A stretch of DNA of 64,000 bases, taken from the NCBI GenBank assembly GCA_964023275.1, contig OZ029920.1:5064014-5128013 (forward strand), in the 5' to 3' direction. Of the stretch, positions 3,821 to 41,925 are shown one piece after another; within the stretch, counting starts at the first letter, position 1, and the number at the start of each line of letters is the position of its first letter. Both the position numbers and the translations under genes were made by a program. Source of the DNA: Norana najaformis (lineage: Eukaryota > Annelida > Clitellata > Crassiclitellata > Hormogastridae). The notes under the pieces were generated by a model, which had not been told where the DNA came from, searched no databases, and saw nothing but the letters and a program-made list of their open reading frames with translations.

Positions 3821-3922
3821 TAAACTGCCAGCCAACTAATATAGGTTTTGTTTTGTACTCCATAATTTATCCAATTAGGCTACCGTTTGATTTTTTCTAC
3901 ATTGCTTTGCACATCAGCTCAG

Positions 3923-3998
3923 ATGTCGATTCATCAAGAAACTAACGCAACTAACAAGCGAGAGATTTCCGAAGAATCCGACCAGCAAGGGAGAAAGA
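3923..3998 (+). CDS. orphan first exon, copy A of the protease-like gene array
   Basis: ATG at 3923 opens 25 codons followed by a phase-1 donor, A|GTGAGA. The peptide is closely related to exon 1 of the gene at 9097: it shares the start MS.IH.ET, the core KR.ISE.SDQQ and the end KSE or ESE, and has the same donor position and phase. The next ~5 kb holds only repeats and no later exon of the family. It is therefore either a truncated duplicate or an alternative first exon that could splice to the acceptor at 9992, since the phases agree. The upstream TATA box appears mutated compared with copy B, which favours decay. Confidence 0.55.
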
Positions 3999-4039
3999 GT
4001 GAGAAAAACATTATAAGCTTGGGAATTCTTTGCCAAGTT

Positions 4040-8800: not shown

Positions 8801-9096
8801 TTTATTTAAAGCATTTGTCACGCGCGCAATGTCAGTAGACCTGAATTTGAGGCGCGGAATACATGATTTATGACTTATATTTATAATGCATGATTTATGC
8901 AAATATTTTTGAATAAATCAGACATGCGATTCAACTTACAGAGCATGTTTAACGTTCCGGGAAACTGTCGAACAGATGCATGCCTGGTTTTTAAATTGCA
9001 AGCCGACTAAGCATGAAAAAATCGGTTTTGCGTTGTTGCCTGTAATTTATCCAATTATACTTTTATTCTTCTACATTACTTTGCATATCAGATAAG

Positions 9097-12000
9097 ATGT
9101 CGTCGATTCATCCAGAAACTTACGCAGCTAAGAAGCGGAAGATTTCCGAAGGATCCGACCAGCAAGAGAGAGAAAGTGAGCAAAACATCGTAGGCCTACT
9201 TTTAATTCTAAATTTAAGACTTTCAGGAATTGACTGTTTGAAACTATAAGAATCCGTAGATAACTATATGCCAAAGAATGACAAACACAACATAGAGATT
9301 TCTATGAGTTGTGCGTAATCGCTTTCAACGAGTATGAGTTGTACATAATCTCTTTCTATGAAGTTTCTGAGTTTTACATAATCGCTCTTGAACGCAAGGA
9401 GCGAAACGTACATTCTAACCACTTCTTGTTTGGCTTTCTGTAGTTCAGCTGTATGGCGCTGAGAATAAGGCATGTCAGCAAGTGCTACGCTCAATGCTCC
9501 ATCTTTATGCATATTGACGTTCCTACCAGTGCTCCACCTTGGTGCATTTCGATCTGTCTCTGTATCAATAATTCGGAAATAGCAGACCGTGAGACCGAAA
9601 GAGGGCTTCGGGAGATAAGCAATATGAGATTTAAATCCTGACCTAAACGACATAACAAAACCAGCGAAGTGGACAGAAGTGGGCAGCGAATTCCAGAGCC
9701 TTCGGTCAGCGTAAGAGAAAACCAGGAAATCAGTACTGTTTTGGTTTAGGGCACCTAAAAGGCTAGAACATCCAATGTGTGAGTGCAGTTTATGATCACG
9801 ACGGGTAGGCAAAGACAAAATATAAGTTGGCTGGCTAAAGCTTATTACTTCATAAAGTACATGTATGAGACAAGTTTTAAATTGGATTCTTTGTTCTACA
9901 GGAAGCGAGTGTAATGATTGCTGCATGTGGACGATGTTTTGGAATTTTCGTATTTTCCTATGTAATCAATTATAATTTGATTTTTCTATAGGTATTAACG
10001 GTGCAAATAAAAGCTTTGACAAAATTAAGAATGATTGCGAAAATAACGCACAGACTGATGACGTCTTTTCCCCTGTACAGACAATCGCCATTTTCAGTCA
10101 GTTGCGAACCTTCATGTAAGTAGCAAACGCGTTTTCTAACTGCGTAGTGTTACTATATGCACAGGTAAAGTAACAGAATGGTGCAGCGCATTTATATAGA
10201 GCGTCTAGAGAGCCTCTAAAAAGTTATTAAAGAGCGATATACAAATGTAAATGGTTCGTTGAATTCACCGACTGCTAATAATGGGGAACTGCTTCAAGGT
10301 CGAAAGGACTTAGTGGTTTAAAAGTAAGTGAAATATCCCATATCCTTCAAGTGAGACGTAGGAGAGGCGTCCATTTTCTTTTCTTAAGGCTCTTCAGCCG
10401 GCAATGGACGAATCGCAAGGTCCTGGATATGGGGCCAGTGCATCGTAGGACTTGCCGTTTACTTCCCAGCTTACGCCGGTATCAAATTATACTGCTAGGT
10501 GACAGAGGCAAGGTGTGCGCAAACAACTTGCCCAGGAGTCTATCCCGCTACCGCTACAAAAATATTAGTTACATATGTCAAAGTACCATTTTAACTAATT
10601 TTCACTTGAAGCGACCATCGATTGATGCCTGGTGTAATATGATAACGGCACTATAGAAGTCATTAGATTAGACGAGGTTTATCTACGCGTGGATGCTTTG
10701 TATTAAACAGATTCGATGGACTGAAGATTACGAACTGCATCTTCAGAAGCGACCACGTCGAAATTTGTTTCCTCTTAGACGACAGTTGTGTCTACAACAA
10801 AGACGAACTGAGACAACAGTTGGCCGAGCATCTGAAGATCAAATCGGAGTTGCTCAAGCTGACAAAACTTCGTGCAAGACCCACCTACAAAGACACGTCT
10901 TTGAGACCAGGAGAATCTGCAACCATCCTGCAGCCACAAAAAGCAACTGTCGGAGCTTTTGTTGAAGTTGAGGGTAAACCAATATTCACACAATATACAA
11001 TCGGTTGAAGTTGGTGGAATTTCTCAGATATATTCTAGAATGACCGCTTTCAGAGGTTTCAACACGAACGAAATTCTGAATAGTGTTGACACTAATGCAT
11101 GTTATTCTGTCTTCTTTCGCTCGTTTTATATATGTATATTATATATATATTATAAATATATATATGTAACGCTGTTCATAGACAAATCACAAGTGGCACA
11201 AGACAATAAAAAGGGCAATCAATGTCTGGAGAAAACTATATATCTTGCTGAAATACGTATTATATCCATGCCTTACTGTGTTGCTAATTAGCTAGTTCGC
11301 AAAAATTGTCCGTGGTGAAGGCCGGTTGAAGACAAGACAAGATTGGCTAGGTGGTCGTTACAATTTATATTAACGATCATTAGATCTCCTTCTTCAACTT
11401 CTTTTGTTTCCAGTTGAATATTGCATTAAATTGAAAATTGCATGCTCAATATTCGAAGCCCAGAAGTGGGACACGTTGCTAACTCCACATTGCACTGGTG
11501 AACACATGCGTTTTTCTGAGGCTAGGCCTAGGTTTAGGACAGTTGTGAGATGGCGTGGTTGCAGTTGTTGTGCCCCTCGTATTTGGATTCGTTTACCACA
11601 AAAGGCCCGACTTTCCAACTCGCTGTCTACATTTAGATCACTTGTAAAGTACCCACTATGTCATTCTGGTACATGTTTGCTTAACTATGTCTTGGCTTTT
11701 CACGAACATCATCCACGCCTCAGATTCAGATTTACTGACTTTGCGCGTGTTATAAATGCTTTTAATAAATAAATAGTCTACCCTGAATTGTGAAGTCCTC
11801 TTAGTTGCAGCTCATACTGTCTTTTTAAATTGAATTTAATTATGGTAAATTCACCTGAAAGATGGTGTTATCGAATGCGAAGGTACTTGAGATTAAGGAA
11901 ACAGAGGTCTTAAGACTAAGGAAACAGAGGGGGATTCTCGTGAAGATCTAACCCAAATTCATAATGCGGTTTAAAACCAGGGAAAGGGACGCACGCGCTC

Positions 12001-12591
12001 ATGAGTGGTCACGGAAAAGCTCCGGGCAATGTGCTGCTCTATTCGAATGGTGATCGACTCGGAGTGGTCAATGTCTCTTTGCATCTACCACTTCAACCTA
12101 CCACCAACAACAAGTGGTGCAACTACAGCGACGTGGCTTTGGCTCGCCTTGAGAATCAGGAGCGCTATTTTGCTGAAGTACTCGACGATAACCAAGTTCC
12201 GTTGGGGTTGATGGAGCAGCCGAAAGAAGCTACGAATAACTTGAGGGTCAGATGTTTTACAAGGGATGGAAGAAGAGGTATAATTGACAGCACATCCTAC
12301 AATATTCCTGATTCCACCTACAATATATACTTTAGACTGATATCCGTGATCAGTGAAGACGGAGGACCTATGCACAAAAAGGGCGAAAGTGGGATTCTGA
12401 TTGTAACCGATAATCCTGTCGATGGAAGAGTCGATGCCGTGGGAATTCTGGTTCTCCTGGAGAAGATGCGTGAAGATAATGAGGAGCAGACAGTGAGATT
12501 TACAAGCCTCGCTGTTCCACTTCTGTCAAATTTCGATGCCCTTCGCGACCATCCCTACTGCAATGGCGCTGCAGTTAAATTTCTCTCATGA
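9097..12591 (+). CDS. trypsin-fold (PA clan) protease-like protein 1, four exons
   Basis: Exons: 9097-9175, 9992-10115, 10711-10973, 11981-12591. Donors are A|GTGAGC, AT|GTAAGT and G|GTAAAC; acceptors are CTATAG, AAACAG and ACCAG. All joins keep frame and give 358 residues. There is no signal peptide or membrane segment; a basic KKRK lies at residues 12-15. Residues 68-125 form a small domain also present in the paralogue (G.(K/E)IT.C.F), which I do not recognise. The C-terminal domain has His166 in ALMSGHGK, Asp206 in YSDVALARLE and Ser292 in KGESGIL, then AVGILVLLE. The His-Asp and Asp-Ser gaps (40 and 86) fit chymotrypsin (45 and 93), and DVALARL matches the classic D-I-A-L-L segment. An active intracellular serine protease or a binding-only relative are both possible. 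AATAAA follows at 12827. Confidence 0.82.
9264..9926 (-). pseudogene. LINE reverse transcriptase C-terminus inside intron 1 of protease-like gene 1
   Basis: The minus-strand frame contains SLPVEQRIQFKTCLI followed, after a gap, by DRRLWNSLPTSV and SFRSGFKSHI. These are hallmarks of the C-terminus of CR1/L2/Jockey-like reverse transcriptases (LPV..RI.FK, LWNSLP, F.S.LK). The last part runs into a three-fold small repeat (9300-9400) and no longer reads as LINE. Confidence 0.7.
9300..9400 (-). repeat. three imperfect repeats of about 33 bp
   Basis: The word GAGTTGTACATAATC, with small changes, followed by a CTTTC/CTCTT stretch occurs three times in tandem. On the minus strand it yields DYVKL, DYVQL and DYAQL-type peptides, probably by chance of repetition. 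Confidence 0.5.
10388..10530. repeat. dispersed repeat, second copy of the 3585 family
   Basis: This segment matches 3590-3710 through GGACGAATCCCAAGGTCCTG-like and ACTTGCCGTTTACTTCCCAG words. It lies in intron 2 of the protease-like gene 1. Confidence 0.6.
10595..10675 (+). repeat. LINE 3' end with ATTAG tail (short copy)
   Basis: GCGACCATCGATTGATGCCT is followed by ATAACGGCACTATAGAAGTC and a short ATTAG tail, just upstream of exon 3 of the protease-like gene 1. Confidence 0.65.
11404..11772 (+). pseudogene. LINE reverse transcriptase C-terminus inside intron 3 of protease-like gene 1
   Basis: The frame includes RIWIRLPQKARLSNSLSTFR and SLVKYPL, matching the (L/I)W..LP plus SL.TFKS.LK pattern at the end of CR1/L2-like reverse transcriptases. 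The upstream part is not recognisable. Confidence 0.6.
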
Positions 12592-12826
12592 TGTTTACAT
12601 CAGGTTCAAACTTTTAAAAGATGTCTTTGTACAATCAGTTTGACTTTCTCGAGTATTTTCTATCGTGGTTATACTACTGAAATTCATTCATTTGAAGACA
12701 TGCATATTTATTGCAATTATCAGTGTACACATTTGCTATCGTACTGATTCTATTTCGCTTTGTCTGACTTTTTAACGCGTTCTATTGTGAAATTTTACGC
12801 TTCTTAGTTTGTCATATATATTACTG

Positions 12827-12832
12827 AATAAA
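12827..12832 (+). terminator. polyadenylation signal AATAAA of protease-like gene 1
   Basis: AATAAA lies 236 bp after the stop codon at 12591, on the coding strand. Confidence 0.55.
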
Positions 12833-13019
12833 TGTAATTATCATTTCGTATGTCTCGCTTGTTATTATGAGCTGCGCCATTTTGCAGGGCATTTCTTGTT
12901 CTCTTTCATCCATTGCTGCACTAACCATTGGCCATGCGTTTGTTTTGGTAAAATTAACCGCAAACAGGAAAAACATGGGAAGTGATTATTATTATTTCTA
13001 CATCTATAAAACACCACTA

Positions 13020-13235
13020 TCTTAAGATTAAGCATCAGTCGATGGCGCTGAGCAACTGTGGATGAAAGACTTGTTCAATATCCCTGCCCAGTAACCGTCT
13101 AAGGGCAGGCTCGAACCAGTACTCTCTGCGTTACAAGTCGCACGCTCTAACCAATGGGCTACCGTGAGTTACACACAAGCCGAGCGCTCTAACTAATCGG
13201 CTACCGTTACCCACTAAGTTAGACAACCCTAGGAT
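13020..13235 (-). repeat. tRNA-like SINE with two tandem heads
   Basis: On the minus strand the head reads CGGTAGCCGATTAGTTAGAG (A-box-like) and is present twice. The copy next to the body has the B-box-like GGTTCGAGCC and continues to GCTCAGCGCCATCGACTGAT. Related copies are at 28055 (-), 33213 (+), 49505 (+, five heads) and 60590 (-). Confidence 0.75.
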
Positions 13236-13539
13236 TGGACCAACAATACCCAAAAACCATTCGCCGTGAAGTTTGTCACAACACGCGGAATTAACAAATC
13301 GCTCGACTTCAGTAATGGACTTCAACAACAACAATTAGTCTTACAATTCTTCGTATTTATTGAGCGTCTTGATCACTTGTGCTTAGAAATTTCTACTTTA
13401 CTATTGAGTGTACGAATAATTACCTCTATCCGTCGTAGAGCCCGAGTTATATTTTGAGTGCAGCGGAAACATTTTGGTACAAATAAAACAGAGAAAAACA
13501 AGCCCCGCGGGTTACACAGGGTACACAGAGATATTTCAC

Positions 13540-13805
13540 TTGAAACTAAAACACTCCTCTTCGAAAGATCCTATACTAATTTCTTTTCTTCCCTTTATCA
13601 ATCTTGCCGCTCCAATTCCAAACACCATCCACCGTAGTTGTCTGACTGTCTGCATGCCTGACCCTTGGATCTCTTGGTTCTGAAACCGAACCTTTCTTGC
13701 CTATCAATTTTGTTTTGACTGAGCGCCTGTGAATAGGATGGTTTCCGCGACTTAGCTTTCGTTTGGCGCTGTAGAAATCTCGAGTTACGATTACGATTAC
13801 CTTAT
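13540..13805 (+). repeat. CR1/L2-like LINE 3' end with GATTAC tail
   Basis: The full 3' end is visible: TTTTGACTGAGCGCCTGTGA, then TTTGGCGCTGTAGAAATCTC and ACGATTACGATTAC. This is one of the best-preserved copies of the family. Confidence 0.8.
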
Positions 13806-13899
13806 AGGAGAAAAAAATAGCGGTCCCTATTTAACTAAGTGAAACAGCCATGGGTATGAAGTGCTAACAACTTTATTTTCCTAGCCGCTGTATTAAGGA

Positions 13900-14345
13900 C
13901 AGGTGACTGACTAATCATCTTCCTCGCCGTCTGATCATTCCACCGACAATGCATGTCTAGTATTTTCAACACTGTACTTGCACGCAATCATAATTTTTAC
14001 AGCTGAGTTCGCTAGGAGGCGGAATAGAAACATAATTTCGATATAGCTTTCTCCTATGGCCGGGATTTGAACCTCCAACCTCTGTATTGACAGTCAAACA
14101 CTGTAATGTACACTGATAAATGCCTAGGTAGATTATTAACTTAAACGTACAGGCAAATGTTTCAGCCTCTCTTAGTTCAATTTCCAGCTAATGTTATGGT
14201 ATATGAGGATAGCAGGCTAGAGGTCGATCGTGCTTTGGATTTGTTATTAAATGTAGGCAGGGATTAGTCAACGCAACGAGACACACATGTAGGTTGGCAT
14301 TACTTAGCTTGCCACTTGCAGATTCATGCAAGAGGGAGATAGTTC
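13900..14345 (+). repeat. duplicated upstream block, copy C (diverged)
   Basis: Ordered matches to copies A and B: GCTGAG(T/A)TCGC, a GGGATTTGAACCTCCAACCT-like word, a TTTCAGCCTC(T)C word, then CAACGCAACGAGAC. The copy lies upstream of the second protease-like gene, as expected from tandem gene duplication. Confidence 0.55.
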
Positions 14346-15240
14346 AGCCGGTGCAATGCACCAGTTACTTAGTAAATCAATAAGTAAGTAGGTAAAATAG
14401 TTAGTTAATTATTTAATTGTCGTGTATGTTTAACATACATTCTTCAATTTACAAAATTATATCTATATTTGTTATTTACTTTTTCGTGACAGGAAATACT
14501 TTCTAAACGGCATTGCGTGTTGACAGAAATGTTCTGCACTACAAAAATACATCTGTGTGATTATAAATGTACAGATGGTAAATATATTTACTATGTTGAA
14601 TCAGAAACTATACTGAATGCCTGAAACGTTATCCGTATGGAAGTAACAAAATTTCAGACAGAAGAAAATACACTAAACTTGATCATGGCTTCAGATGATC
14701 TGTAATCGAAATTTCACATAAATCCACGTCGCATTCCTTCACTGCCCTGGTTACAGGGACGAGAGCACTTAGGATCTGGCCATAGTGAATTTCTGTAAAA
14801 ATACGCTGATGCAAAAGTCATAGATATGCGAATATTTTTAGTTCAGTTCATGTACTGTCGATGCTTTTAACCAGTTTATTTGATATCGGTATGAAACTAC
14901 GGAGTCGTATATATCAAAGTACGATTCATGTTGTCTGTATACTGCATATATCTTTATATATACTTAGGAGGCCTAACTGAAATTGTGATTCACCGATGTT
15001 ACCCACTGCTACATAGTTTAAAATAGTAGCTACGCTAACTAAATGTATAGTTTAATGTGCTGCCTGTTTGCAAAATTGAGATGTTGTTAAAGTGGGGAAT
15101 TAAAAAAATCGATAATTCATCGGGATATTGCCTAATATGAAACGTGTGGTCGATGTCAACGACCCTGGCACCCATAAGATGTTGTTAAACACTGAAACTC
15201 TAAAAATATTAAATGTAAAATGTGCACTTTTTTATTGCAG
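14346..15240. other. gene-free AT-rich stretch
   Basis: There is no supported gene or clear repeat except short TATATA runs. The frame at 15128 has no recognisable content. Confidence 0.4.
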
Positions 15241-15244
15241 ATCC

Positions 15245-15600
15245 ATATCTCACACTGCGCCTGCCTCTGGAACGATCTCCCAACTGAATCCTACAAATTC
15301 TCCGTTCTTCTATTTCTCCTGTCGTTGTCCAAGCATCACTTGCCGTCCTCTATCAGTCATTAGGCTTTCTATTCAAAACTTTCCATTTCTCTCACCCTAA
15401 ACACAATCCACCGAAACAGGTTCTCTGTCACCAACTGTGTCTCCTGCATGGCCGTGGTCTCCCTGCAATCGTGTCTTCACTTTTCTGTAGAACTCTTTGA
15501 CTTAAAGAAACGCTCGTGAATAGCGTAGTACTCTACGGTTAGATTTTAAGTAGTGGTTTAGGAATTCTGGAGATTACGATTACTACTGCGATTTTATTAT
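15245..15600 (+). repeat. diverged LINE 3' end, GATTAC-tail family
   Basis: The layout matches the copy at 13540, with the LINE ORF end, GCTCGTGAATAGC and TGGAGATTACGATTACTACT, but it is more diverged. Confidence 0.5.
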
Positions 15601-15647
15601 CTAATATTAATTCGGTATCAATGAAATTTTAGAGCTTTGCTACCAAC

Positions 15648-18600
15648 ATGGAGCAAGAAGCGATAGCTGCACATCAACTGAAAGTGAGTCCTAGCTCATG
15701 TACCGAACTCCACAGTTTAAGAATCAATTTTTAAGGCTTCAGAGATTCAGCTGAGAAACAAAATGTAATATTTCTGCCTTTAGAAAATATCAAAGTCCAA
15801 ATTCTGTGTTTGTTGGCAATTGTGCAAAGGAGGTTTCATATAAATAGTAATAAAAAGAAATGCTATTATTACCTTGCTAGTTGCGTTGTTAAACACAAAA
15901 CATAATCTTAGTGTCTAGTTAATGTCAGTTCACTTTTGTAGGCCTTCCAGCCATACCTGTTAGCGAAGTCACCAGTTGACTCTGTGATGCGTACGTTGCT
16001 TCCCGAACGCGACTTACAATGTGAACATTAGATCGCCTTGAAATAGGAGCCTTCTCGGGCTTCCTTGGGCTCTCGGACCTTCCCGGTAAGTGGTCCAAAA
16101 CTTTGGAATTCACTGCCCGTTTCAATTCGTTCTGTCCAATCATTGATGTCATTCAGGTCTAAACGAAAGACGCATGTCTTCCAAGTTGCTTTTATACCGT
16201 AGCCTGACTTCTGGTTTCTCTGACCCATCGGAAATCGACCCACTTTCTCCCACGGTTTATGATTTTGATTGCGATTTTGAATTGAAGCGACCATCGACAG
16301 ATGCCTTAGGTATTATGATAACGGAGCTGTAAAAGTCCTTAGATTAGATTAGATTATATTAGATTAGAATATAACAGATTAGATTAGATTAATTAGAGAA
16401 TGAAACTGACCAAGGCATCTTTACATTCGGAAGTTGACAGTCGACTCTCGTAGTTTGCAATAACGATGTTTATTAGTCACTGAACTGCTGTAACTAAAAG
16501 AATCTGCAGTAAGTTTTCGAGACGTTCTAAATATAGACAATCCTCTTAATTGCATTATAAGAAAAACGTAAGTGAAATGTTAAACACGTACGGCTGTCAG
16601 TATCATTCTTTCGATCATAAATTAGACAATGGAATAAGTACAAAAACGTTTGAATTGAAAATAATATAATCGTAAAAATGTTAAAATTTGCAGGGAGAAG
16701 TTACGAAGAAAGAGCAGAAAGAAGAAATCGAAAACGAGAGATTGAGATAAGAGAATATGTCTTCTTAATCAAGTAAGACTATTCGCAATTGTATTTAATT
16801 GGTCCATTCGTAATTTTCCAATCAAGCAAGAGCTAAAGCGACCTAAATAGTCCACCTGTTCATTAATCAATCGGGAGGAATCGTTCTGTTGCAAAAGGTA
16901 GTGCACATACAGTGAGCTAATGCGAAAAATTGATAAGCCTAATCCGGTGACGACTATGTAGCGTATTTTGCGTAACCAACTATGCAGCTATCAACAGTGA
17001 TGTAGTACCTCTTTCAGAACACACAAGAGGTTCTCCAGACATGACAACACAGGACTACTGCTGATGCTGCTACTACTGATTCATAAGACAACTACTACTA
17101 GTACTCCCACTACTGCTACTACTACGACAACTACTACTATAACGGTTGATGCCACTACTGCTACTACCACTGCTGCTGCTACTACTATTACTACTCCTGC
17201 TTCTACTGCTACTGCTACTGCGACTACTAGCACCTCCATTACTCCAACACCCCATGACAATTTTCATTACCCCTAACAGCATGACATTATATTTTGAGCA
17301 TTTTGTTACGCCCGAAGGACTAGAAATCAATGAGGCACGAACAGTTAATGCGTTTCGCTCGTATTACGATCTGAACATTTTCTCGATGGCATCAATTTAA
17401 TACTTGATCAACTGTTAGATGTACTTTTGTATTTTAATCTTCAATTGGCAGTCAACCTGGAGTGGAAATAACTCACTGCAACTTTGGGGAAACTCAAGTG
17501 GAGGTCTGGTACGTAGCAAAAGAGACCGATGGTGAAAACATCGAGGAGGATCTGCGTAAGGAAATCGAACCACATGTCAACCCGTACACACTGAAACTTG
17601 TAAAGAAAGCTGGTCCAAGTACACTTCGCCAGGACAGAGTACTAGTTTGAAGAGGGCAGACAGCTGCATTGGCGCCTACGTAACCTTAACAGGTACAGTA
17701 GCATACTTCACATAGCAGCCGTAATGTTGGCCTTATTCGGCCTTCCATCAGATAGCTTTCTATGTTACTATATCTTAATCATTAGGATCTAACATTATGA
17801 GAGCAGTTATGTTGCAAGTACGCGTCTTATTAAAATAAAAACTCTGTATTTACTATACCTCATCATAACGAAAGCATACATTAAACATACTGAGATATAA
17901 TTTTACTATCTCAACTCTGCAAACCTATTATTTATCCTGACTGAGACAGCTTAAATAAATTCGCACAGTATCAACATCATCCTCTCTAATGTCAGAAACA
18001 ACGACACTTATGAAATTACAAGGATCTATAATTGTAATAAGAAATTTATATAGCGCCGATTCATTCATGACAGAGTGGTTGCCACTGGTGCTTCTGACCG
18101 ATTGCGATTCAAATAACAGACATCCTTTGAAATTGACCATTCTTCATTAAGCTATACATGTGAGTCAAAGGACCTGTCGGCTGAGGGTTCATCCAATTTC
18201 CTTTGTCCCGATGTCAGCCAAATGGCCCTTCACCAGGTTGCAGCCCAAAGGCTTTCGTTCAAACCCGATCATTATAATTCGTCAGAGATGTTATCTGGTT
18301 TTCTAGATGCGAAGAGTCGCGAGTCCAAGATGCACGCTCTTGTGGCCGGACATGACAAGATACCCGGATATATTATTTATTTGAATCAGAATCCAAACCA
18401 GAGAATCGGCAAAGTGATGGTGGTAAAAGAAGGTCAAAAAGATAGTACTACTGTTAGTGGTGCGTGGTCAAACGACCGTTCTGGCAGCTATGATGTTGGG
18501 CTGGTCTTGACGGATGAACAGCAACGAGGCAGACATGAAAATTCGGTGACTACGAATCATTTCGGGAGAGTTAACTTAGCCAGAACTACAGCAATGCTTT

Positions 18601-18962
18601 TTCCTGAGGATATGAATGATCATCAGAAAGTAATGCTCTTTAACAACAGCAACACAGAAGGCACAGTACGCTACAACAACTACAACAGTCAAATTCCGCA
18701 AAAGTTCGGAAGGATTGGAATAGTGCAGCAGCAAGGCGAGATGAAGGCAGTTCATGGAGAGAATGAAAGCGGAACGCTGGTCACTGCTTTGCCACATTAC
18801 GCAGAGAATGGGGTAAACCTTGTGAAGGCGGTTGGAATGTTGGTTGGAGTTGAAGAATTTGAAGTACCTGAAAGCATATCACTGGCTGTGTCAACTGGCA
18901 CAAATCTTCAAGCACTGCAAGAAGATAAATATTGTGCAAATCAAGTAATAGAATTTGCGTAA
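15648..18962 (+). CDS. trypsin-fold (PA clan) protease-like protein 2, multi-exon paralogue
   Basis: Solid exons: 16694-16772 (donor AA|GTAAGA, phase 2) and 17452 onwards (in-phase; IT(H/N)C.F matches the paralogue). Its donor may be AGA|GTACTA near 17636. The last exon starts at 18218 (pyrimidine-rich acceptor gatgtcag) or 18186 and ends at TAA 18962. Phases support 18186, the pyrimidine tract supports 18218; unresolved. A first exon at 15648-15687 (12-13 codons) is tentative. The 246 residues from ATG 18222 hold His44 in HALVAGHDKIPG, Asp91 in SYDVGLVLTD and Ser183 in ENESGTLV, then AVGMLVGVE. Gaps of 47 and 92 nearly equal chymotrypsin's. Compared with protein 1, NESG replaces GESG and DVGLVLT replaces DVALARL, so activity may be reduced. 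No signal peptide is visible in the exons found. Confidence 0.75.
16030..16400 (+). repeat. CR1/L2-like LINE 3' end with ATTAG tail
   Basis: The copy shows CCAAAACTTTGGAATTCACT, then GTCATTCAGGTCTAAACGAA, GCGACCATCGACAGATGCCT, ATAACGGAGCTGTAAAAGTC and (ATTAG)n. It is the longest example of this family in the window. Confidence 0.8.
17040..17240 (+). repeat. trinucleotide (ACT/CTG) repeat tract
   Basis: About 200 bp of imperfect ACT, GCT and CCT triplets lie in the intron before exon 17452. Thr-rich and Ser-rich frames over it are artefacts of the repeat. Confidence 0.85.
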
Positions 18963-25918: not shown

Positions 25919-28900
25919 ATGAATTTGATCAATATGTTCTGGACAGTTGCACTTGTGATGTTAGCATCTTGCGGCTTCCATAAGACATACGGCACAGGTA
26001 GGAAATATTTTGCCTTCGGAGACAATTGGTTGAAGGTTTATCTTTATGTGATGCAAATAAGCAGTTGGTAAGGTGTGTTTGTAGCTGTCTGCCATGATGT
26101 CTTGGTTGTGCGGTGGATATTACCTTTTTCATTCTATTTTCTGCCTGCATTTCTGATTATACCAAAAACTGGAACTGTTCTTGGTGAAGAAGACTGTTTG
26201 GTTGCTAGACCTAAATATTGGAACTCTCTTCCTGGATCTATTTGATCTCCTTGGTCTCTTACGGTATTCTGATCTCAAATTAAAACTTCTCTTTCAGCTG
26301 GCTTATCCATCAGAGGTTGGCTCTTGGTCTTAGTGGACTCACTCCTGGGTATTGACCTGTCAACGACTTGGTTTTGGTATGCCTTCAGTTGATGCCCTAT
26401 GCATTAGACACCAGCATTGTAGAATTTGCTATTTATTATTTAAATAATATTTTATTCCAGTAGTGGGTCTGTTATGGGATATGGGTTAGCATGCTGGACT
26501 ATGAATTTCGTGATTAGCAGTTCTTATCCTTACCAGTACAAAAAGCTATTTCCATATTTATGGGATGATCAAATGCCAAGGGCCATCCACGTAATTTGCT
26601 AAAGTTTCATGTATATCACTGCCTCGTATGGTTAGCTTCTTCTTCTTTATTCCAACAGTAATTTTGATATGCTGGACGAATCCACTTATTTACTCACATC
26701 TAAGATGATGGTTGCCAAAATATTGTAGAGTTGTACAATATGATTGACTTCGATTTTATTTGGACCCCGGATTTGAACCCCAATCAGGAAGGTTAAGTAG
26801 GAAAAGTGAGTGCACCAGAGCACTGTCTTTGAGAGCCATAACAAGAATTGTATTCTAACGAGACCTTGTTGTATCAAACTTGTGTGATAATGAAGCATGT
26901 TAAAATGAGTCTCTGTTAAAGGTACATAATCGATATGATTCACTGAAATGTGGAAGACTTTACTGGCGGTATCTTTATTTGCAGGTACTGAATTGCCAAC
27001 TCCAACTGATGGCACAGCAACTGAAGCACCCAAGCCAAGCAGTAAATTGCCAACTCCAACTAATGGCACAGCAACAGAAGCACCCAAGCCAAAGAGTAAA
27101 TTGCCAACTCCAACTGATGGTACAGCAACTGAAGCACTCGAGCCAGACAGTGAATTGCCAACTCCAACTAATATCACATCAACAGAAGCACCCAAGCCAA
27201 GCAGTAAATTGCCAACTCCAACTAATGGCACAGCAACAGAAGCACCCAAGCCAAGCAGTAAATTGCCAACTCCAACTAATGGCACAGCAACAGAAGCACC
27301 CAAGCCAAAGAGTGAATTGCCAACTCCAACTGATGGTACAGCAACTGAAGTACTCGAGCCAGACAGTGAATTGCCAACTCCAACTAATATCACATCAACA
27401 GAAGCACCCAAGCCAAGCAGTAAATTGCCAACTCCAACTAATGGCACAGCAACAGAAGCACCCAAGCCAAAGAGTGAATTGCCAACTCCAACTCATATAA
27501 CAGCAACAGAAGCACCCAAGCCAAAGAGTGAATTGCCAACTCCAACTGATGGTACAGCAACTGAAGTACTCGAGCCAGACAGTGAATTGCCAACTCCAAC
27601 TAATATCACATCAACAGAAGCACCCAAGCCAAGCAGTAAATTGCCAACTCCAACTAATGGCACAGCAACAGAAGCACCCAAGCCAAAGAGTGAATTGCCA
27701 ACTCCAACTCATATAACAGCAACAGAAGCACCCAAGCCAAAGAGTGAATTGCCAACTCCAACTGATGGCACAGCAACAGAAGCACCCAAGCCAAAGAGTG
27801 AATTGCCAACTCCAACTAATATAACAGCAACAGAAGCACCCAAGCCAGGCAGTAAATTGCCAACTCCAATTAATGATGCAGCAACAGAAGCACCTAGTGC
27901 AGGCAATACCCTGTTAACTACATTTGCTGTGACTGCTAAAATGCCATCCAAGCCAGCCAGTCGGCTGCCAGCCAGTGTCACAGACAAAGCTGCAGGTGCT
28001 TCTTAAATTAATTTAATTTATTATTATGATTATTTCTGCATATTTCAATTATAATTATTTAATGACTAGGCATCAATCAGTGGCACTGAGCAATTGTGAG
28101 TGAAGGTCTTGCTCAAGATCCCTACACTGCGAACATCTTGGGGAGGCTCGAACCCATACTCTCCATGTTACATACCAAGCTTGCTATCCAGTGGGCTACC
28201 ATGCCTCATCAAGGATGGAACCTAGCCAGGTTGACCACAATGTTGCAGACTAACATATGGCTAAAACTTCTGGAGTTTATATGCTTCCAACCAGTTTTGT
28301 TTGATGAATTTTCCTGAGCATTTAGATAAATAAAATTCTAGGCAAAACGGATTTTTAAGATAATGTAATCTGACTTTGGTTGTCATAAAAATCTAGCATT
28401 ATTTTATAGGGGTATTGAATTATTAAGTTTTCAAGTGAAGACTCAAGGGCAGCTCTAGGATCCGAAGTTAGGATGTTCACCAGATAACATTGGACATAGA
28501 GCATAATGAAAAAAATATAGGAAAATGTCGTTGTGCAGGAATAAGAGAGTTTTTGCTTTGCATTGCATCGTCAACAAACCAGACTTAAGCCAATCCAGGT
28601 CGATAAATCTCGACAGCACAATTTTTTGCCTTTCTCTGTGGACTTAATCCTTTGGGTTAACAGGAAGTTATAGTAAAATTATAATTTGTGTAAATTCATT
28701 TTCACAGAGAGTGGTGGCAGAAGCCCAATGGAGTTTCTTACTTATTTTATCGTTGTCGTGGTTACTCTTGCCGTCTGCTATCTTATCTACCATAATCGAC
28801 AGAGGGTGAGTGTAGTAGAAAGCTAATGCAGTACTGGTGAATTTCTGCAGCAGAATAAACTGGTAGGAGATGATCTCCTAATGTAACTTGTATTCTGAGT

Positions 28901-34065: not shown

Positions 34066-35880
34066 TCACCTTGTGCTGTCAGCTCTTTGAGCTCTAGCGA
34101 CCGTCATGATCAATCTTCTCCATTTCTTTCTTTCCAATGTCGCGTCCCTTAGTTGTGCCAAGTTCATTCCAGTTGCTTCGTGTATCTTGTCCATCCATTT
34201 TTTCCTTGGTCTCCCTTGTTTTCTCTTTCCCTCTCCACAAGCCAGCATCATTTCTTTTTCCAATCCATCTGATCTCATAACATGTCCAAAGAACCTCAGC
34301 TTTGATTTTAGCACTGTTTGTTGTAACGTCTCATCTTGCTCAATTCCAATCGCCTTGCGTACCCATTCATTAGTCCTTTTCTCCGTCCATGATGTTCTCA
34401 GCATCTTCCTCCATATCCACATTTCACAAGCATTGATTTTTTTCTCTATTTTCTTGGTCATTGTCCACGTCTCACTGCCGTATGTTACTGTTGGTATAAT
34501 CAAGGCCCTCACCAATCTTTTTTTCGTGTCTGTGCTCACATGTTTGTCTTTCCATATTTTTTCTAGTCCATTCATTGCGGCTTTTCCAATCGCCACCCTT
34601 CGGTTTATTTCCATATCGCACTTTCCTTCTCTTTCTACTACTGATCCCAAGAATGTAAAGCTTGTTACCGTCTCTAATTCCTCTCCATCCACCATAAAAC
34701 TGCCCTCCTCAGCTGTTGTCATGATCTTCGTTTTCTTTATATTGAAGTATAGTCCTGCTTTCTCGCTCTCTCTCTTCAGCCTTCTTATCAGTTCTACCAG
34801 ATCTGTTTTTTTACCTGCTAATAGTGTTGTGTCATCTGCGTATCTCAGATTATTCAGTGTTCTTCCCGCTATCTTTACTCCCTCTTTTGCTCCATCCATT
34901 TCCGCCATCCTCATTATCCTTTCTGCATATAGGTTAAATAGGAATGGGGACAGAATGCATCCCTGCCTCACTCCTTTCTTTATTTTGATTCTTTCAGTAT
35001 CTCCAAATTCAGTTCTTATTACCGCAGTCTGTTCTTCGTACAATCTCTTAAGAAGTTGTATCAAGTGCCTTGGTATTCCCATTTCTATTAAGGTTTTCCA
35101 CATCAACTCATGATCAATGCAATCGAATGCCTTACTATAGTCAATGAAGCATATGTATAATTTTTGTCCATACTCCTTTTGTCTCTCCATTATCCACCGC
35201 ATGTTGGCGATATGATCACGAGTTCCGCGGGATTTCCTAAATCCTGCTTGGTTATCTGGAAGCTCCCTCTCTATTATGTTCTCCATTCTTTTATGTATTA
35301 TTTTAAGTAGTATTTTACTTATGTGCGATATCATTGCTATGGTCCTGTAGTTTTCACACTCTCTCGCATCTCCTTTTTTGAATATAGGGATAAAGATTGA
35401 GCTCTTCCAATCCTCTGGCCATTTTCCGGTTGTCCATATGATATTGCACATTTTTGTTATTGTCTTTGTCATTGCGCCATCTCCTGCTTTTACCATTTCT
35501 ATGGGTATCCCATCCAGACCCGGTGCTTTATTGTCCTTCAGTTGTCTAATTGCCCATTCCACCTCTGCTTCCAAAACGTCCGGTTCCTTTTCATGTTCTG
35601 ATGTATCGATTCGTTCTTTCATTACTCTCCTATCTTCACTGTACAGCTCCTCTGTGTATTCTTTCCATCTGTTCTTCATTTCCTCTTCGTCTGCGATTAT
35701 GTGTCCATCCCTTGACCTCATTGATCCCATTCTTGGTGTGAATTTTCTCGTTATTTCCCTCACTTTTGAAAACATTTCTTTAGTTCTTCCTTTCTTTCCC
35801 TCTTCCTCCATTTCCTTGCACATTGCATTTAGATGTTTTTCTTTGTCTATACGTGCTTGCTTTTGGAATGCTCTATTCAT
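34066..35880 (-). CDS. LINE reverse transcriptase domain and C-terminus
   Basis: A 604-residue frame. It begins in the linker (FQKQARIDKEKHLNAMCKE) and contains the finger/palm blocks APGLDGIPIEM, CENYRTIAMISH, AGFRKSRGTRDH, the catalytic FIDYSKAFDCIDH, GVRQGCILSPFLFNLY and LRYADDTTLLAG (YADD with both aspartates), then the thumb FLGSVVE. It ends with the Arg-Pro-rich KQGRPRKKWMD and W-RR end typical of RTE elements. It lacks an RNase H domain. Frame is offset by one from the endonuclease frame at about 35873-35880. The enzyme copies LINE RNA into target DNA. Confidence 0.95.
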   Translation of the reverse strand: MNRAFQKQARIDKEKHLNAMCKEMEEEGKKGRTKEMFSKVREITRKFTPRMGSMRSRDGHIIADEEEMKNRWKEYTEELYSEDRRVMKERIDTSEHEKEPDVLEAEVEWAIRQLKDNKAPGLDGIPIEMVKAGDGAMTKTITKMCNIIWTTGKWPEDWKSSIFIPIFKKGDARECENYRTIAMISHISKILLKIIHKRMENIIERELPDNQAGFRKSRGTRDHIANMRWIMERQKEYGQKLYICFIDYSKAFDCIDHELMWKTLIEMGIPRHLIQLLKRLYEEQTAVIRTEFGDTERIKIKKGVRQGCILSPFLFNLYAERIMRMAEMDGAKEGVKIAGRTLNNLRYADDTTLLAGKKTDLVELIRRLKRESEKAGLYFNIKKTKIMTTAEEGSFMVDGEELETVTSFTFLGSVVEREGKCDMEINRRVAIGKAAMNGLEKIWKDKHVSTDTKKRLVRALIIPTVTYGSETWTMTKKIEKKINACEMWIWRKMLRTSWTEKRTNEWVRKAIGIEQDETLQQTVLKSKLRFFGHVMRSDGLEKEMMLACGEGKRKQGRPRKKWMDKIHEATGMNLAQLRDATLERKKWRRLIMTVARAQRADSTR

Positions 35881-37030
35881 TTCTCGTACCTTGTTTTTGT
35901 CTCCTTCTTTTTTTTGCCTCCTTTCTTTCTACAGCTATGTTGATAGCATCCTTCGAGAGCCACAGAGTTGTTGTGACTTTCTTTTTCTTCGGAATGTGTT
36001 TCTCAGCAGTTTCTAGTATTATTCCCTTCACCTTCTCCCACAGGTGGTTCGTGTCCTCATCTATCATCGTCTCGTCCCTCTCTAATATTTCAAACCTATT
36101 CCTTATTTCCGTTCTGTATTCCGGTGTAATTCCTTTGCAGTCATACGTGTTCAGTCTTTCTCCTTTTTTCAATTTCTTCAATTTCGTTTGCACTGTTGCC
36201 ACTAATAATTCATGATCAGTTCCACAATCCGCGCCTGGTCTCGTTCTTACATCCCTTATCGTGCTTTTCCATCTTTTGTTTATCAGTATGTAATCTATCT
36301 GATTCCGATGTTTCCCATCTGGTGACGTCCAAGTGTACAGTCTTCTTTTTGGCTGTTCAAACCATGTATTCATTATTCCCAAGTTGTTCCCATCGCAAAA
36401 CTCTACTAATCTTTCTCCTGCCTCATTTTGTTCTCCTAGTCCATGACCTCCAATCGTGTCCCCTGCTCCTCCGACGTACTTTCCCACCTTCGCATTGAAG
36501 TCACCAATGACCATTATTACATCTCCCTTAGGGATTCTATCTATTGTACTTTGCAGCTCAGTGTAGAACTTTTCATGCTCTTCTTCTTTTGCTATCGATG
36601 TTGGTGCGTACACCTGTACAATTGTTATGTGAACCTTCCTTCCCCGAAATCTTACGCTCAGTATTCTGTCACTCACCGTGTCATATCCCATTATTGCATT
36701 TGCACTTGTCTGATCACACATGATTGCCACCCCATTTCTTCCTTTTTCCTCCTGCCCTGACATTATTATCTTATAGCCATTCCAATTAAAATGTCCTTGT
36801 CCTTTCCACCTTGTCTCGCTTAATCCCATGACTGATTTTTTGAGTCGCTTCATCTCTCTCTGTATGACATCCATCTTTCCACTCTGCATACTACGCACAT
36901 TCCACGTGCCTATCTTCATCTTCTTCTTGCAGCTCAGGTTGAGTCTGCTTTCTGGTGCGATCCGCCTCTGGACGTCCTTTCGGCTTTGGTCCCGTTGCTT
37001 CATTAGACCGGATTGCTCTTGACTCTCCAT
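35873..37030 (-). CDS. LINE apurinic-type endonuclease domain
   Basis: The frame contains MKIGTWNVRSMQSGKMD (N-terminal TWNVR), GLSETRWKG (catalytic Glu), VQVYAPT, MVIGDFNAKVG (GDFN), YTWTSPDG plus QIDYILINKRW, and GTDHELLVATV (SDH-type His). These are the conserved APE-endonuclease blocks, which nick target DNA to prime reverse transcription. It stops just at the start of the reverse transcriptase frame; the two were probably one open frame and a single indel separates them. Confidence 0.93.
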   Translation of the reverse strand: MESQEQSGLMKQRDQSRKDVQRRIAPESRLNLSCKKKMKIGTWNVRSMQSGKMDVIQREMKRLKKSVMGLSETRWKGQGHFNWNGYKIIMSGQEEKGRNGVAIMCDQTSANAIMGYDTVSDRILSVRFRGRKVHITIVQVYAPTSIAKEEEHEKFYTELQSTIDRIPKGDVIMVIGDFNAKVGKYVGGAGDTIGGHGLGEQNEAGERLVEFCDGNNLGIMNTWFEQPKRRLYTWTSPDGKHRNQIDYILINKRWKSTIRDVRTRPGADCGTDHELLVATVQTKLKKLKKGERLNTYDCKGITPEYRTEIRNRFEILERDETMIDEDTNHLWEKVKGIILETAEKHIPKKKKVTTTLWLSKDAINIAVERKEAKKRRRQKQGTRNE

Positions 37031-37340
37031 CTCGCTCTTTCCCAGTAGCTGTTAAGTCGCTCTCCGGCCTGGGAGTCTCACCATCTGCGACTATTTTTTT
37101 GCATGAATTGTCTTGTCTCATGACGGTTTTCTTGGCACTTTCACAGGGGTGGTTTGCCATTGCCTTCCCCTGGTTTTGCCTGCCGTGCCCGTTCGTTCCC
37201 CTTCCCATAGTGGAAAGGGTACTAACAGTCTGCACCACGTGAAGGTGGGCACGGAGGACTTTGATTCATCAGCCCAGGTCGGTTCCAAGTCTACGATCAA
37301 AGGATACGTCGGTCGGGTCTCCTCCCTGTTTTACTATAGA

Positions 37341-38038: not shown

Positions 38039-41000
38039 CTACACGCTATTTGTATTAGCTACCATACCATAGGCATACACTAGGGCTGATTTGGGGAGTT
38101 TTGCGGCAGTTTTCCATGAAGCAACTTCGTCCTTGAACACATTCAAAACTCTAACGTACTTCAGCTCATCACTGCAAATCCAAGTACCTTCATCACCAAT
38201 AGATGACCCGCCACCGAATACAAAGATTCGCTCATTCTGCAGAATCAAACCAAAGTAGCTGACATCCGTTTTAAATTGGTTTCTTTCTACCCAGATTCCC
38301 GCTTCAATGTTGAAGATAAAACATGTGTGTTGGCCCATTAGGATGGCGTGTTTCCCGCAAACCACTGCGCGCATAAGTCGAGAAGGACGGGGCATGCGTG
38401 TCGACAAGATGTTGACGGATTTAGTAAGCGTGTTGTAAACCTGAACGCAATCCAGATCTCTGTCCTCTTCAGTCATTCCACCAAAGACGAAGATGGAATC
38501 CATGTACGCAACAGAAGCTGCGACTTTTACACCGTGTTTCAAATTCCCAACTGGGTTACATTCATTTCTCGAAACACTGAATGCTTCAATGCTTTTCAGT
38601 GTCGTTTTTCTTTCGGGAGAACACGGACAACCGCCGATAATGAACAGCTGTTCACCTACAAACTCCGCGCAATGCCACACCCTATCCTGAAGCATTGATC
38701 CACATTTCGTCCAAGTGGAACACAAGCTATACTTCCAGATTTCTCTGTAACTGTCTCCAATTCCGGTGACGAACACCGTATCGCAGTAGACGGCCGCTGC
38801 ACATCCAACGGTCATTTTAGTCGGTATTTCTTGCAGAGACGAAATCTCGTGAGGCGGATTCAGACTTATTTTCAAGACGTCGTTCGTTATAGTTGATCCA
38901 TGGCTTGCGCCCAATCCATTCACGATGAGATAATTATTCTCTTGTAGAACTGCTTCTGTTACACATATAAAATAACAGAACATAACATGACACGGGTTTC
39001 ATGTGGTTCAGGAGAGATTTATCTGTGTTAGAATCATTGCAAATCACCGGGAATGCTCAATGGCCAATCCTTCCCAGCATCATCTTCTATGACATATACA
39101 CGAAGACAATACCATTCCACGCGTCTGCAACTCGTTCTTTAGCTCAGTCTTAGTAAAGGCCTCTAGTAAATATAGACTACACTATATCGTCATGAGTGTC
39201 GCATAATTAGCCTATCTGATATTGGACAAATGACATTAAAATATAATTTCGTATAACATAAAATTTGTCATTTTTTCTTATTGCCAAGTCAAAAGAAATA
39301 GCCTATTGTTTTAAGCAGAAAAACACGCTGAAAATCGATTACCACTGAGGAAGCATTACTTTGATGCACAAAGTAATTCAATAAGCAGCAGTACAAATAA
39401 AAACAAACTAGTAAATACTAACTAGTATGTCATATTATTGCTGTGTATTAGACTACTATTACTGAGATTGCTATTCATACGTGGCAGTTAGAATTACGTG
39501 TAGCATACTATGGCCTATACAATTCAGGCAATGGGTGACACTAAGAACTGAACCAACTTGTAGTTAACTATAACCACTTCCGGCAACTTCGCCATATTTC
39601 TTCAGTACCTGTTTCAATTAGTAATCGTAAACTCGAGATTTCTACGGCGCCCAACGAAAACTAAGTCGTTTGAACCAGCTTATGCACAGGCTCTGAGTCA
39701 AAACAAAATAGATAGGTAAGAAGGGTTCGGCTATACCGAGTCCTTAAACCTCTATCCTAGATTTAATCAATATAAGCCTATCCCAGCGATGACTCTAGAA
39801 ATCTCAGCATATGCATCAGTTGAAAAGTTTATTTTTTCTATTATAAGAAGTGGAAATGAACTCAAAAGAATGTTCATATCGAAACGAATCGAGGTTACGG
39901 TTTGCGACCTGATCGTGGCTTATTTCAGAGATTTGAATCTCGGGCTAGCACGATCCGTACACAGAGACCTTAAATGGCGTGGCGCCCATTCAAACGGGCA
40001 GAGGTGTGAAGGATCTCACCCGATAAATTCATTGCCAAATGAGCATGGTCGAGGCCATACGGTCGCTGTAGAAAAACATGTACATTTACATTTAGACCTA
40101 CCTTTGAGTTCTCCAACGATGTTTTTGTTGCGTCTCTTCAGAACGTCTGTGATATTGAAAAGGGTGAAGGAAATATCAAATGACCGGCGTGGACTCATAA
40201 CAAAAGTCTCGTGCGCTTCCTCTAACTCTTCAGCTCTCTGAAGCAATTCGTCTTTTCTTCGGCAAACGTCGATAGCAGATTCCTTTGATCGGAGTTCATC
40301 GCAGTATCTTCCGAAGGCCTGAAGCACCGTTTTACGCCAGTCCAGCTCATCCTTTTCGGTTTGCAGCTTCTTCAAATGTTCACTTTTTATTGATGCCAAC
40401 GACTCTAATAAAATTCTGGTGTGCCTGTCTATTAGCGTTTTCAGCTTCTTGTTTTCCAGAAGAATTTCTTTCTCTATCCTATCTATTTTCTCAAGAAAAT
40501 CCTCTTTCTTTTCCGTATTATTTTTCTTCCTTAACAATTCAGCAACGAATCTTTTCATTTTGGTAACGTTTCTACTATTGATCTGATAAAACTCTTCTTC
40601 AACTTTATTTACATCTTTCCAATTGTGTGATTTGTGACTTTCATACAAGCATGTAACGCAGATCACTTGCTTGCAATCCGCACAGTAGACATCCAAGAGC
40701 TTTTCGCGATGAATTTCGCAGTTCATACGTGGAATGGTCGCTCTTACTTCTGTCACACCTACTTCACTGACAGTATCTACAACTCGCTGATCCTTAGAAC
40801 TGTATCCTTTGACGCAACCATCGCAAGGATTAAGCTTACCTTTGCATTCAAAACAATGAGTCTTCATGCTTGCATTGTTGGCACCAGTGTCCACATTAGC
40901 TTCACCAGAAACAGGTGATAGGCTCTGGTCAAATGCATTTGTCACTTCTATTAAATTTTCCATAGTTAAATTTTTCTGTAACCCTTGGAATCCGTTGTCT

Positions 41001-41206
41001 GGAATTGTGAACTCCTGTCTGCAAAGAGGACAAGGCATTTGGACACCGGGCTTCTTGTTGGTCTTCTTTGCAGTCTTTTGCAGGCAACCGGAGCAGAATG
41101 TATGTACGCATGGCAGCATTCTTGGATCAGTCAACGTTTGGAAGCAAATACTACACATCGCAATGTCGTACAACTGCTTCAAAGCGAGGCTGTTATCTGC
41201 AGCCAT
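38039..41206 (-). CDS. TRIM-type RING/B-box/coiled-coil protein fused to a Kelch propeller, two exons
   Basis: Minus strand. Exon 1 is 41206-40102 (donor AAAG|GTAGGT), exon 2 is 38955-38039 (acceptor GTGTAACAG); the phase-1 join gives 673 residues. The ATG at 41206 follows AAAAAA and is preferred; nothing upstream in frame starts with ATG. The RING is C3HC4 (Cys18, 21, 33, His35, Cys38, 41, 59, 62). A degenerate B-box 1 (Cys118, 121, 128, 131) and a B-box 2 (Cys163, His166, Cys175, 178, 183, 186, His191, 194) follow, then a coiled coil (about 200-345). Exon 2 carries six Kelch-like blades with LFIIGG, IFVFGGM, AILMGQ and IFVFGGG. The expected role is a ubiquitin E3 ligase that recruits substrate through the propeller. 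Human TRIM proteins use SPRY, NHL, filamin or PHD ends, so a Kelch end is unusual. The intron carries two repeats. Confidence 0.87.
38996..39615. other. intron of the TRIM-Kelch gene, no further features
   Basis: AT-rich sequence without recognisable repeats or alternative exons. Confidence 0.4.
39625..39755 (-). repeat. LINE 3' end with GATTAC tail (truncated)
   Basis: AATCGTAAACTCGAGATTTC, TACGGCGCCCAACGAAAAC and AGGCTCTGAGTCAAAACAAA match the family. It lies inside the intron of the TRIM-Kelch gene. Confidence 0.75.
39895..40095 (+). repeat. tRNA-like SINE with CATTTA tail, six bases past the TRIM exon donor
   Basis: CGACCTGATCGTGGCTTATT, CTCGGGCTAGCACGATCCGT, GGCGTGGCGCCCATTCAAAC and CGGTCGCTGTAGAAAAACAT, then ACATTTACATTTAG. 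The SINE tail nearly touches the TRIM exon 1 donor at 40101, so the exon 1 frame, if unspliced, reads into it. Confidence 0.8.
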
Positions 41207-41229
41207 TTTTTTCTTCAGGTAGACCAAAC

Positions 41230-41925
41230 AGTCGACTGCTTTGTAGTTCAGTAGTAGTCACTTGCAGCTAAAATTCTTCTGGTATATCGAACACTCTACT
41301 GCTTAATTTCCAACAATAGTTGCTTGTGGCTAAGATAAAGTAATAGTATAGATACCAAAGTACCTGGACCTAAGTTTTCTTGTTCACCATTGTAAACGGA
41401 TTTTACTTGCACAGTCTTCGTCCGTTGTTGCTATACTGTTATCTTTTAGTATTTCCAAAACAAAATTATCAGCAACTTTCCCGTTATCTACTTCTTTGCT
41501 TTCACTTTCAAATCTGGATTACAAAGAAAACTGTAAAAATCGGCCTCTAAGCTTACTCATCTTACATAAACATTTTATTATTCCGTTCTTACGTTGTCTG
41601 CCCGTGTTGCACAAAAAATAATTAGAATTAGACCTATTGTCATACTAGACTGGTTATTATAGGTATATTGTTTACGAGTTTCATCTTCTATTATTACTTC
41701 AACTCTGTCATGTGCCTGCCGATTAAGCATTATGATACTGGTCCCTTGCCAGATATTGTGAGGTAACGATTATACCTGTTAAAATCACACGAAACCGTTG
41801 CATTCGTTCGATGTCTAAACCTACAACGATCAAACTTAGTGAATCAAATCAAATTAGGCTTTCACTTTAAGATGATAAAGGCTACTGTTAACTCTATTAT
41901 TAGAAATAATGAGCCTATCGTCTAA
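41230..41925. other. upstream flank of the TRIM-Kelch gene
   Basis: No supported gene. No clear TATA box on the minus strand. Confidence 0.4.

Follow-up and report, generated by a model that had tools for sequence, protein, structure and literature searches.

The window analysed here, a stretch of 64,000 nucleotides (C8:5064014-5128013, in an assembly of 608 Mb and 17 contigs), carries two neighbouring genes, called gene 1 and gene 2 below, that belong to a family repeated in tandem in this genome. We consider it reasonably probable that they represent a tandem animal family of FAM111-like intracellular serine proteases, in which a small front domain precedes a putative PA-clan fold. FAM111-like refers here to the architecture, and the family was filed as an intracellular trypsin-fold protease family, not as a member of FAM111. 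When the six frames of the window were searched for a pattern of the His-Asp-Ser triad type, two matches were found, one in each gene, compared to none in 100 shuffled windows.

Gene 1 and its copies in the genome

Gene 1 consists of four exons separated by GT-AG introns in phases 1, 2 and 1, and its product is 358 residues long. Exon 1 (9097-9175, + strand, as for all exons of the two genes) starts with an ATG, encodes a KKRK basic cluster without any hydrophobic stretch, and ends on a GTGAGC donor in phase 1. Exon 2 (9992-10115) ends in phase 2 on a GTAAGT donor, and a related exon 2 exists in two loci of the genome, L099 and L100. Exon 3 (10711-10973) encodes the small N-terminal domain (G..IT.C.F....VE, ELR and KL.K), then the strand GAFVEVEG that stands before the His. 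Exon 4 (11981-12591) encodes the candidate trypsin-fold protease domain, with the candidate triad H166-D206-S292 (the Ser being part of GESG), and the stop codon. The stop-to-stop frame holding it spans 208 residues, while the longest open reading frame (ORF) in 50 shuffled windows had 187. A model of gene 1 with four exons, 358 residues and triad gaps of 40 and 86 had been proposed in a sequence-only reading of this DNA; it agrees with the present one in length and in gaps. An alternative model of 362 residues was dropped in favour of this one, as its second exon has no AG at its start.

The N-terminal hydropathy, Cys and PCNA-interacting peptide (PIP) box scans were made with this 362-residue draft, whose only difference from the 358-residue model lies near the junction of exons 1 and 2. 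No hydrophobic stretch was found at the N-terminus by hydropathy, the maximum over 19 residues being -0.96 within the first 40 residues. As far as a hydropathy scan can tell, this agrees with the earlier claim that gene 1 has no secretion signal, and the KKRK that had been pointed out near its start is indeed present in exon 1. No Cys adjoins the His, and a search for the PIP-box pattern found none.

Searches of the same genome with exon 4 of genes 1 and 2 detected two copies of gene 1 at 78% identity (C8:4998953 and 5060054), one copy of gene 2 at 85% (C8:4985658), and one diverged gene on contig C2 at 271372, with 31-33% identity. A broken gene-2-like copy is also present on C2 (50822137-50822783, i.e. 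638-1284 of the minus strand of locus L102), in three pieces with frame changes and one TAG. All these copy numbers are lower bounds. Five copies, all on the same strand, are found within about 97 kb of C8, so that the tandem expansion suggested earlier is seen directly. The copies fall into three lineages: A, the gene 1 type, with three copies (A1, which is gene 1, A2 and A3); B, the gene 2 type, with two copies on C8 (B1, which is gene 2, and B2) and the broken one; and C, a single gene on C2 (locus L101).

Homologues of gene 1 exon 3 were found in gene 2 and in all five loci fetched from the genome, and this small-domain exon lies upstream of the protease exon in 5 of the 5 loci as in both window genes. 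The intron between exons 3 and 4 is GT-AG, interrupts the same codon and is in phase 1 in A1-A3, B1, B2 and C. Given this common position and phase, exons 3 and 4 would belong to one transcript. A viral insertion was also considered, and was dismissed because the copies share introns. Genes 1 and 2 align far above background both in exon 4 (Smith-Waterman z of 22.8) and in exon 3 (z of 8.8), with no shuffle among 2000 reaching the score in either case. Over the 186 codons aligned in exon 4, identity at the three codon positions is.457/.559/.280. Synonymous sites are saturated between lineages, which indicates that genes 1 and 2 are old duplicates, and that lineages A and B have each undergone duplication again at a later time.

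To describe constraint, six copies were aligned (A1-A3, B1, B2 and C), gene 2 by its exon 4 only, while the broken copy of L102 entered no alignment. This alignment has 31 invariant columns, among which are the candidate H, D and S residues, in the order typical of the PA clan, and also the residues ESG at the nucleophile. Triad gaps vary with the lineage, from 33/83 in C to 40/86 in gene 1 and 47/92-93 in B. The G-x-S-G at the nucleophile is kept as GESG in A1, A2, A3 and C; it is not found in the two B copies aligned, where gene 2 has NESG and B2 has SESG. According to PMC10920703, the oxyanion hole of FAM111A is formed by Ser541 together with Gly539, the counterpart of the residue two before Ser. 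With our own Nei-Gojobori script, the three A pairs gave ratios of nonsynonymous to synonymous rates (dN/dS) of 0.39, 0.32 and 0.49, and B1 compared with B2, in exon 4, gave 0.54. When each exon is taken separately, values for the A pairs lie between 0.27 and 0.59, those of exon 4 between 0.34 and 0.59.

The sequence-only reading also described an unrecognised N-terminal domain shared by the two genes, and this description holds: no significant match to this domain was found in Pfam or in the PDB, its exon is homologous across the copies, and it is predicted to be compact. The model, which does not include exons 1 and 2, has a beta-beta-alpha-beta order and a predicted local confidence (pLDDT) of 78. 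The fold matches listed for it are weak, mainly with KH, secretion-ring and cation-transporter domains, and no ubiquitin fold is among them. Compared with approximate sequences of the FAM111A N-terminus and of ubiquitin, it gave Smith-Waterman scores at background (best z of 1.3, 237 of 2000 shuffles as good). Each gene has one recognisable small domain.

Evidence on the fold of the protease-like domain

Direct homology searches with exon 4 were silent, and this weighs against assigning it a protease fold. No Pfam or NCBIfam match was obtained for it. The six exon 4 sequences, searched in Pfam with E values up to 10, reported no family (beyond an E value of about 0.1 most matches are filtered out), PF13365 (Trypsin_2) matched none of them, and the six-row exon 4 profile gave no significant match among PDB sequences. 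On the same side of the balance stands hhalign, whose scores were at background both for HtrA (7 of 60 and 6 of 100 column shuffles as good) and for FAM111A (46 of 60 and 81 of 100). An AlphaFold2 model built from two sequences has a pLDDT of 33, and fold searches with it are uninformative. Since no residue of this model reaches a pLDDT of 50, it does not speak against the double beta-barrel. In the local hhalign alignment, despite its background score, the family His falls on the catalytic His of FAM111A, and Asp on Asp. Pairwise scores with known proteases were at or near background, yet DegS compared to FAM111A itself reaches a z of only 2.99. The family libraries searched can overlook such proteins altogether.

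The case for the trypsin fold lies in how the three invariant residues are ordered and spaced, and in an anchored alignment test. The candidate H, D and S were tied to the triad of a known protease, the segments between them were aligned, and the proposed triad was ranked among all the placements allowed. The FAM111A protease-domain sequence was checked against PDB 8s9k and 8s9l, and the HtrA profile contained 80 rows, DegS and DegQ plus 78 of 80 loci, these loci being 80 of 589 relatives. As a control of the method, FAM111A was placed on the HtrA profile, and its true triad came second of 82060. Ranks against the HtrA profile and against FAM111A were respectively 466 and 480 of 75140 for A1, 2386 and 1034 of 75140 for A2, 553 and 3914 of 75140 for A3, 6855 and 3886 of 79980 for B2, and 326 and 7 of 81311 for C. 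Gene 2 ranked poorly against the HtrA profile (21571 of 71655), and 1277 against FAM111A.

Nulls were made by shuffling the target segments; for these, A1, B2 and C stood for their lineages, gene 2 (B1), A2 and A3 being left out. Against FAM111A, the triad was in the top 0.7% of placements for A1, 5.4% for B2 and 0.009% for C, a result that 0 of 60 nulls equalled; 3 of 60 were as good with DegS, and 0 of 60 with DegQ. This first test is biased, as the motif residues beside the anchors are scored and favour the chosen triad. It was for this reason repeated with four residues masked on each side. The triad then stood at 3.5% (A1), 7.2% (B2) and 0.9% (C) against FAM111A, still with 0 of 80 nulls as good. 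With DegS the result holds (1 of 80), while with DegQ it fails (19 of 80). By eye, the order of elements after the anchors (hairpin, D, S-G, two strands, helix) resembles that of the PA clan. We conclude that the anchored test gives moderate support for a PA-clan assignment, and a hint that FAM111A may be nearer than HtrA.

Gene 2 and other features of the window

In gene 2, exon 2 (16694-16772) encodes a basic RRNRKR stretch, is entered in phase 1 and left in phase 2, and has a related exon in L098 and L102. Exon 3 (17452-17692) encodes the N-terminal domain, with a frame break and a stop at 17648-17650, and exon 4 (18307-18962) the protease-like domain, in which AGHD, SYDVGL and NESG are found with gaps of 47 and 92; the earlier reading of its motifs and gaps is confirmed. 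Its exon 2/3 and 3/4 boundaries match those of gene 1 in phase and position. The earlier proposal that the two genes share one architecture thus stands as far as descent is concerned, by the homology of exons 3 and 4, but gene 2 is interrupted as assembled: between the small and protease domains, the strand before the His (CIGAYVTLT) is in another reading frame than the N-terminal domain. Exon 3 of L098, a gene 2 relative 85% identical in exon 4, is open through the same region without a break. This means that an intact B-type copy exists, and that gene 2 of the window either has suffered damage or was misassembled. With its frame broken, the copy probably does not make a full protease product. 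That gene 2 has an active product is doubtful, given the broken frame and the N or S that its lineage has in place of the Gly two before Ser.

When the window was searched by tblastn with gene 1, no exon 1 of the gene 1 type was detected beside gene 2. Since the phase of gene 2 exon 2 is compatible with exon 1 of gene 1, gene 2 may possibly borrow that exon. A candidate exon 1 of gene 2 at 15648 (36 nt, phase 0) was rejected, its phase being incompatible with exon 2. Relatives of gene 1 exon 1 with the same donor phase are found at 3923-3998 of the window and in L098, where the start is CTG instead of ATG. The former is the open exon, with an intact phase-1 donor, of a copy at 3838-4011 (+), about 80% identical to 9018-9188, which runs from the flank upstream of gene 1 through exon 1 into the start of intron 1. 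Exons 2-4 were not found beside this copy by tblastn within the window, and it is possibly an alternative first exon or a remnant.

Within intron 1 of gene 1, an antisense ORF of 233 residues (9264-9965, -) resembles, on visual inspection, a long interspersed nuclear element (LINE) protein tail. Further along, the window contains an ORF at 26939-28006 with 54-bp tandem repeats and a 216-bp higher period, encoding a Thr/Pro/Glu-rich repeat protein; a non-LTR (long terminal repeat) retroelement at 34066-37051 (-), whose ORFs for reverse transcriptase and endonuclease stay open for 620 and 392 residues; and, near each other, a kelch-repeat ORF (38039-38998, -) and a RING plus B-box (TRIM-like) ORF (40016-41257, -). 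A paired-box domain exon (PF00292, E value 1.2e-28) is present at 57020-58027, and the long CTTCC-type microsatellite behind it leaves the reading frame open. The paired-box exon, the RING/B-box ORF, the kelch repeats and the retroelement point to an animal as the source of this DNA.

Relation to known proteases and significance

Chymotrypsin has triad gaps of 45 and 93, and secreted S1 enzymes carry a Cys beside the catalytic His. Gene 1 is comparable to the secreted chymotrypsins (S1A) in its triad spacing, but it differs from them in having no hydrophobic signal in the hydropathy scan, no Cys next to the His and no GDSGGP. It shares with the HtrA/Deg proteases (S1C; DegS, DegQ) the H-D-S order, and lineages A and C share their G-x-S-G as well. 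However, the product of gene 1 ends 66 residues past S292, and since most of these would be taken up by the protease domain, a PDZ domain could not follow it; exon 4 also has no Pfam match; in addition, the alignment with the HtrA profile is at background, and of the two proteins DegQ fails the masked test, DegS standing at 1/80. Bacterial conflict-system effectors that are trypsin-like and carry EAD or Death-like domains, as described in PMC8195603, resemble the family in associating a trypsin-like domain with a small adaptor domain. No relative of the family turned up when viral and bacterial/archaeal contigs were scanned, or when phages were searched by tblastn, scans that detect only fairly close relatives and did not extend to plasmids; PADLOC gave no meaningful match.

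The closest resemblance in architecture is with FAM111A and FAM111B, vertebrate intracellular trypsin-like proteases (PDB 8s9k, 8s9l). As in these proteins, a small domain stands ahead of an H-D-S domain at the C-terminus, the N-terminus is not hydrophobic, and paralogues are neighbours. Differences are the triad gaps (54/102 in FAM111A by residue numbers, against 33-47/83-93 in the family), the two ubiquitin-like domains (UBLs) of the vertebrate members against one recognisable small domain here, the lack of a PIP-box pattern in the gene 1 draft, and the absence of significant sequence similarity. FAM111 dimerisation, according to PMC10920703, involves a helix with which the protease domain begins.

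A sharper form of the FAM111-like assignment would be that these genes are true, very diverged FAM111 members, whose small domain is one degenerate UBL and which, like FAM111A, act on chromatin or viral proteins. The common order of parts, the absence of a hydrophobic N-terminus, the tandem genes, the best anchored score being that of FAM111A among three PA proteins, and the local hhalign alignment, which pairs His and Asp with their catalytic counterparts in FAM111A albeit at a background score, all go in this direction. We nevertheless hold it unlikely: neither FAM111A nor PF13365 is matched significantly, the N-terminal domain is at background against the approximate FAM111A N-terminus and ubiquitin sequences, and its fold matches do not include the ubiquitin fold. 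Moreover, a survey of FAM111 evolution (PMC9798293) reports that it found no FAM111A ortholog with a single UBL, and that the two marine invertebrate relatives in its tree have none.

The domain could also have the PA fold, or descend from it, and serve for binding as a pseudoprotease. After a catalytic Ser a second Gly is usually present, and GESGI and NESGT lack it; both aligned B copies have moreover replaced the Gly two before Ser. If catalysis were relaxed, H, D and S should hardly have stayed invariant in all six copies, nor does the dN/dS of exon 4 in lineage A (0.34-0.59) favour this possibility, which we regard as improbable. That the domain is no protease at all, but an unrelated fold whose three motifs were kept by descent within one family, would account for the silence of every direct homology tool, the background hhalign scores and the unusable model. 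Against it stand the masked anchored test (0 of 80 nulls as good for FAM111A and 1 of 80 for DegS, albeit 19 of 80 for DegQ), three lineages at about 30% identity keeping exactly H, D and S, and family gaps that fall between those of DegS (30/75) and FAM111A (54/102). We consider it quite unlikely.

Returning to the FAM111-like protease, we infer its fold, catalysis, location and substrates as follows. Each member would have a short basic N-terminal tail, the beta-beta-alpha-beta domain, and a C-terminal serine endopeptidase of chymotrypsin fold (PA clan) without signal peptide. The product of gene 1 would be made in the cytosol and probably enter the nucleus. S292 would be activated by H166 and D206, its own backbone amide and that of G290 would form the oxyanion hole, and the enzyme may clip intracellular proteins. 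The N-terminal domain may act as a targeting, dimerisation or regulatory module, by analogy with the UBL domains ahead of the FAM111A protease domain. The role as a conflict or stress effector put forward in the sequence-only reading would be a further hypothesis, as would the protease activity itself.

Few S1-family proteases are intracellular, and FAM111A, which is among these few, is tied to replication, virus restriction and human disease (PMC9798293). Among the titles and abstract openings listed for literature on FAM111 (invertebrate, mollusc, gastropod, cnidarian) and on intracellular trypsin-like proteases, none mentions such a family. In a wider reading, which we hold to be rather improbable, the genes are in full a family not described before: trypsin-fold proteases that work inside the cell, are targeted to the nucleus, have multiplied in tandem in this animal lineage and carry one minimal beta-grasp-like domain ahead of the protease. 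If this were true, and the animal an invertebrate, a one-domain FAM111 architecture would exist outside vertebrates, and the view that places the origin of the adaptor domains between marine invertebrates and vertebrates would be revised. The duplication and loss of copies would then suggest a role in host defence. As a duplicating family with the same order of parts as FAM111A, these genes would provide an outgroup, with which it can be tested whether the pairing of adaptor and protease is old or arose twice.

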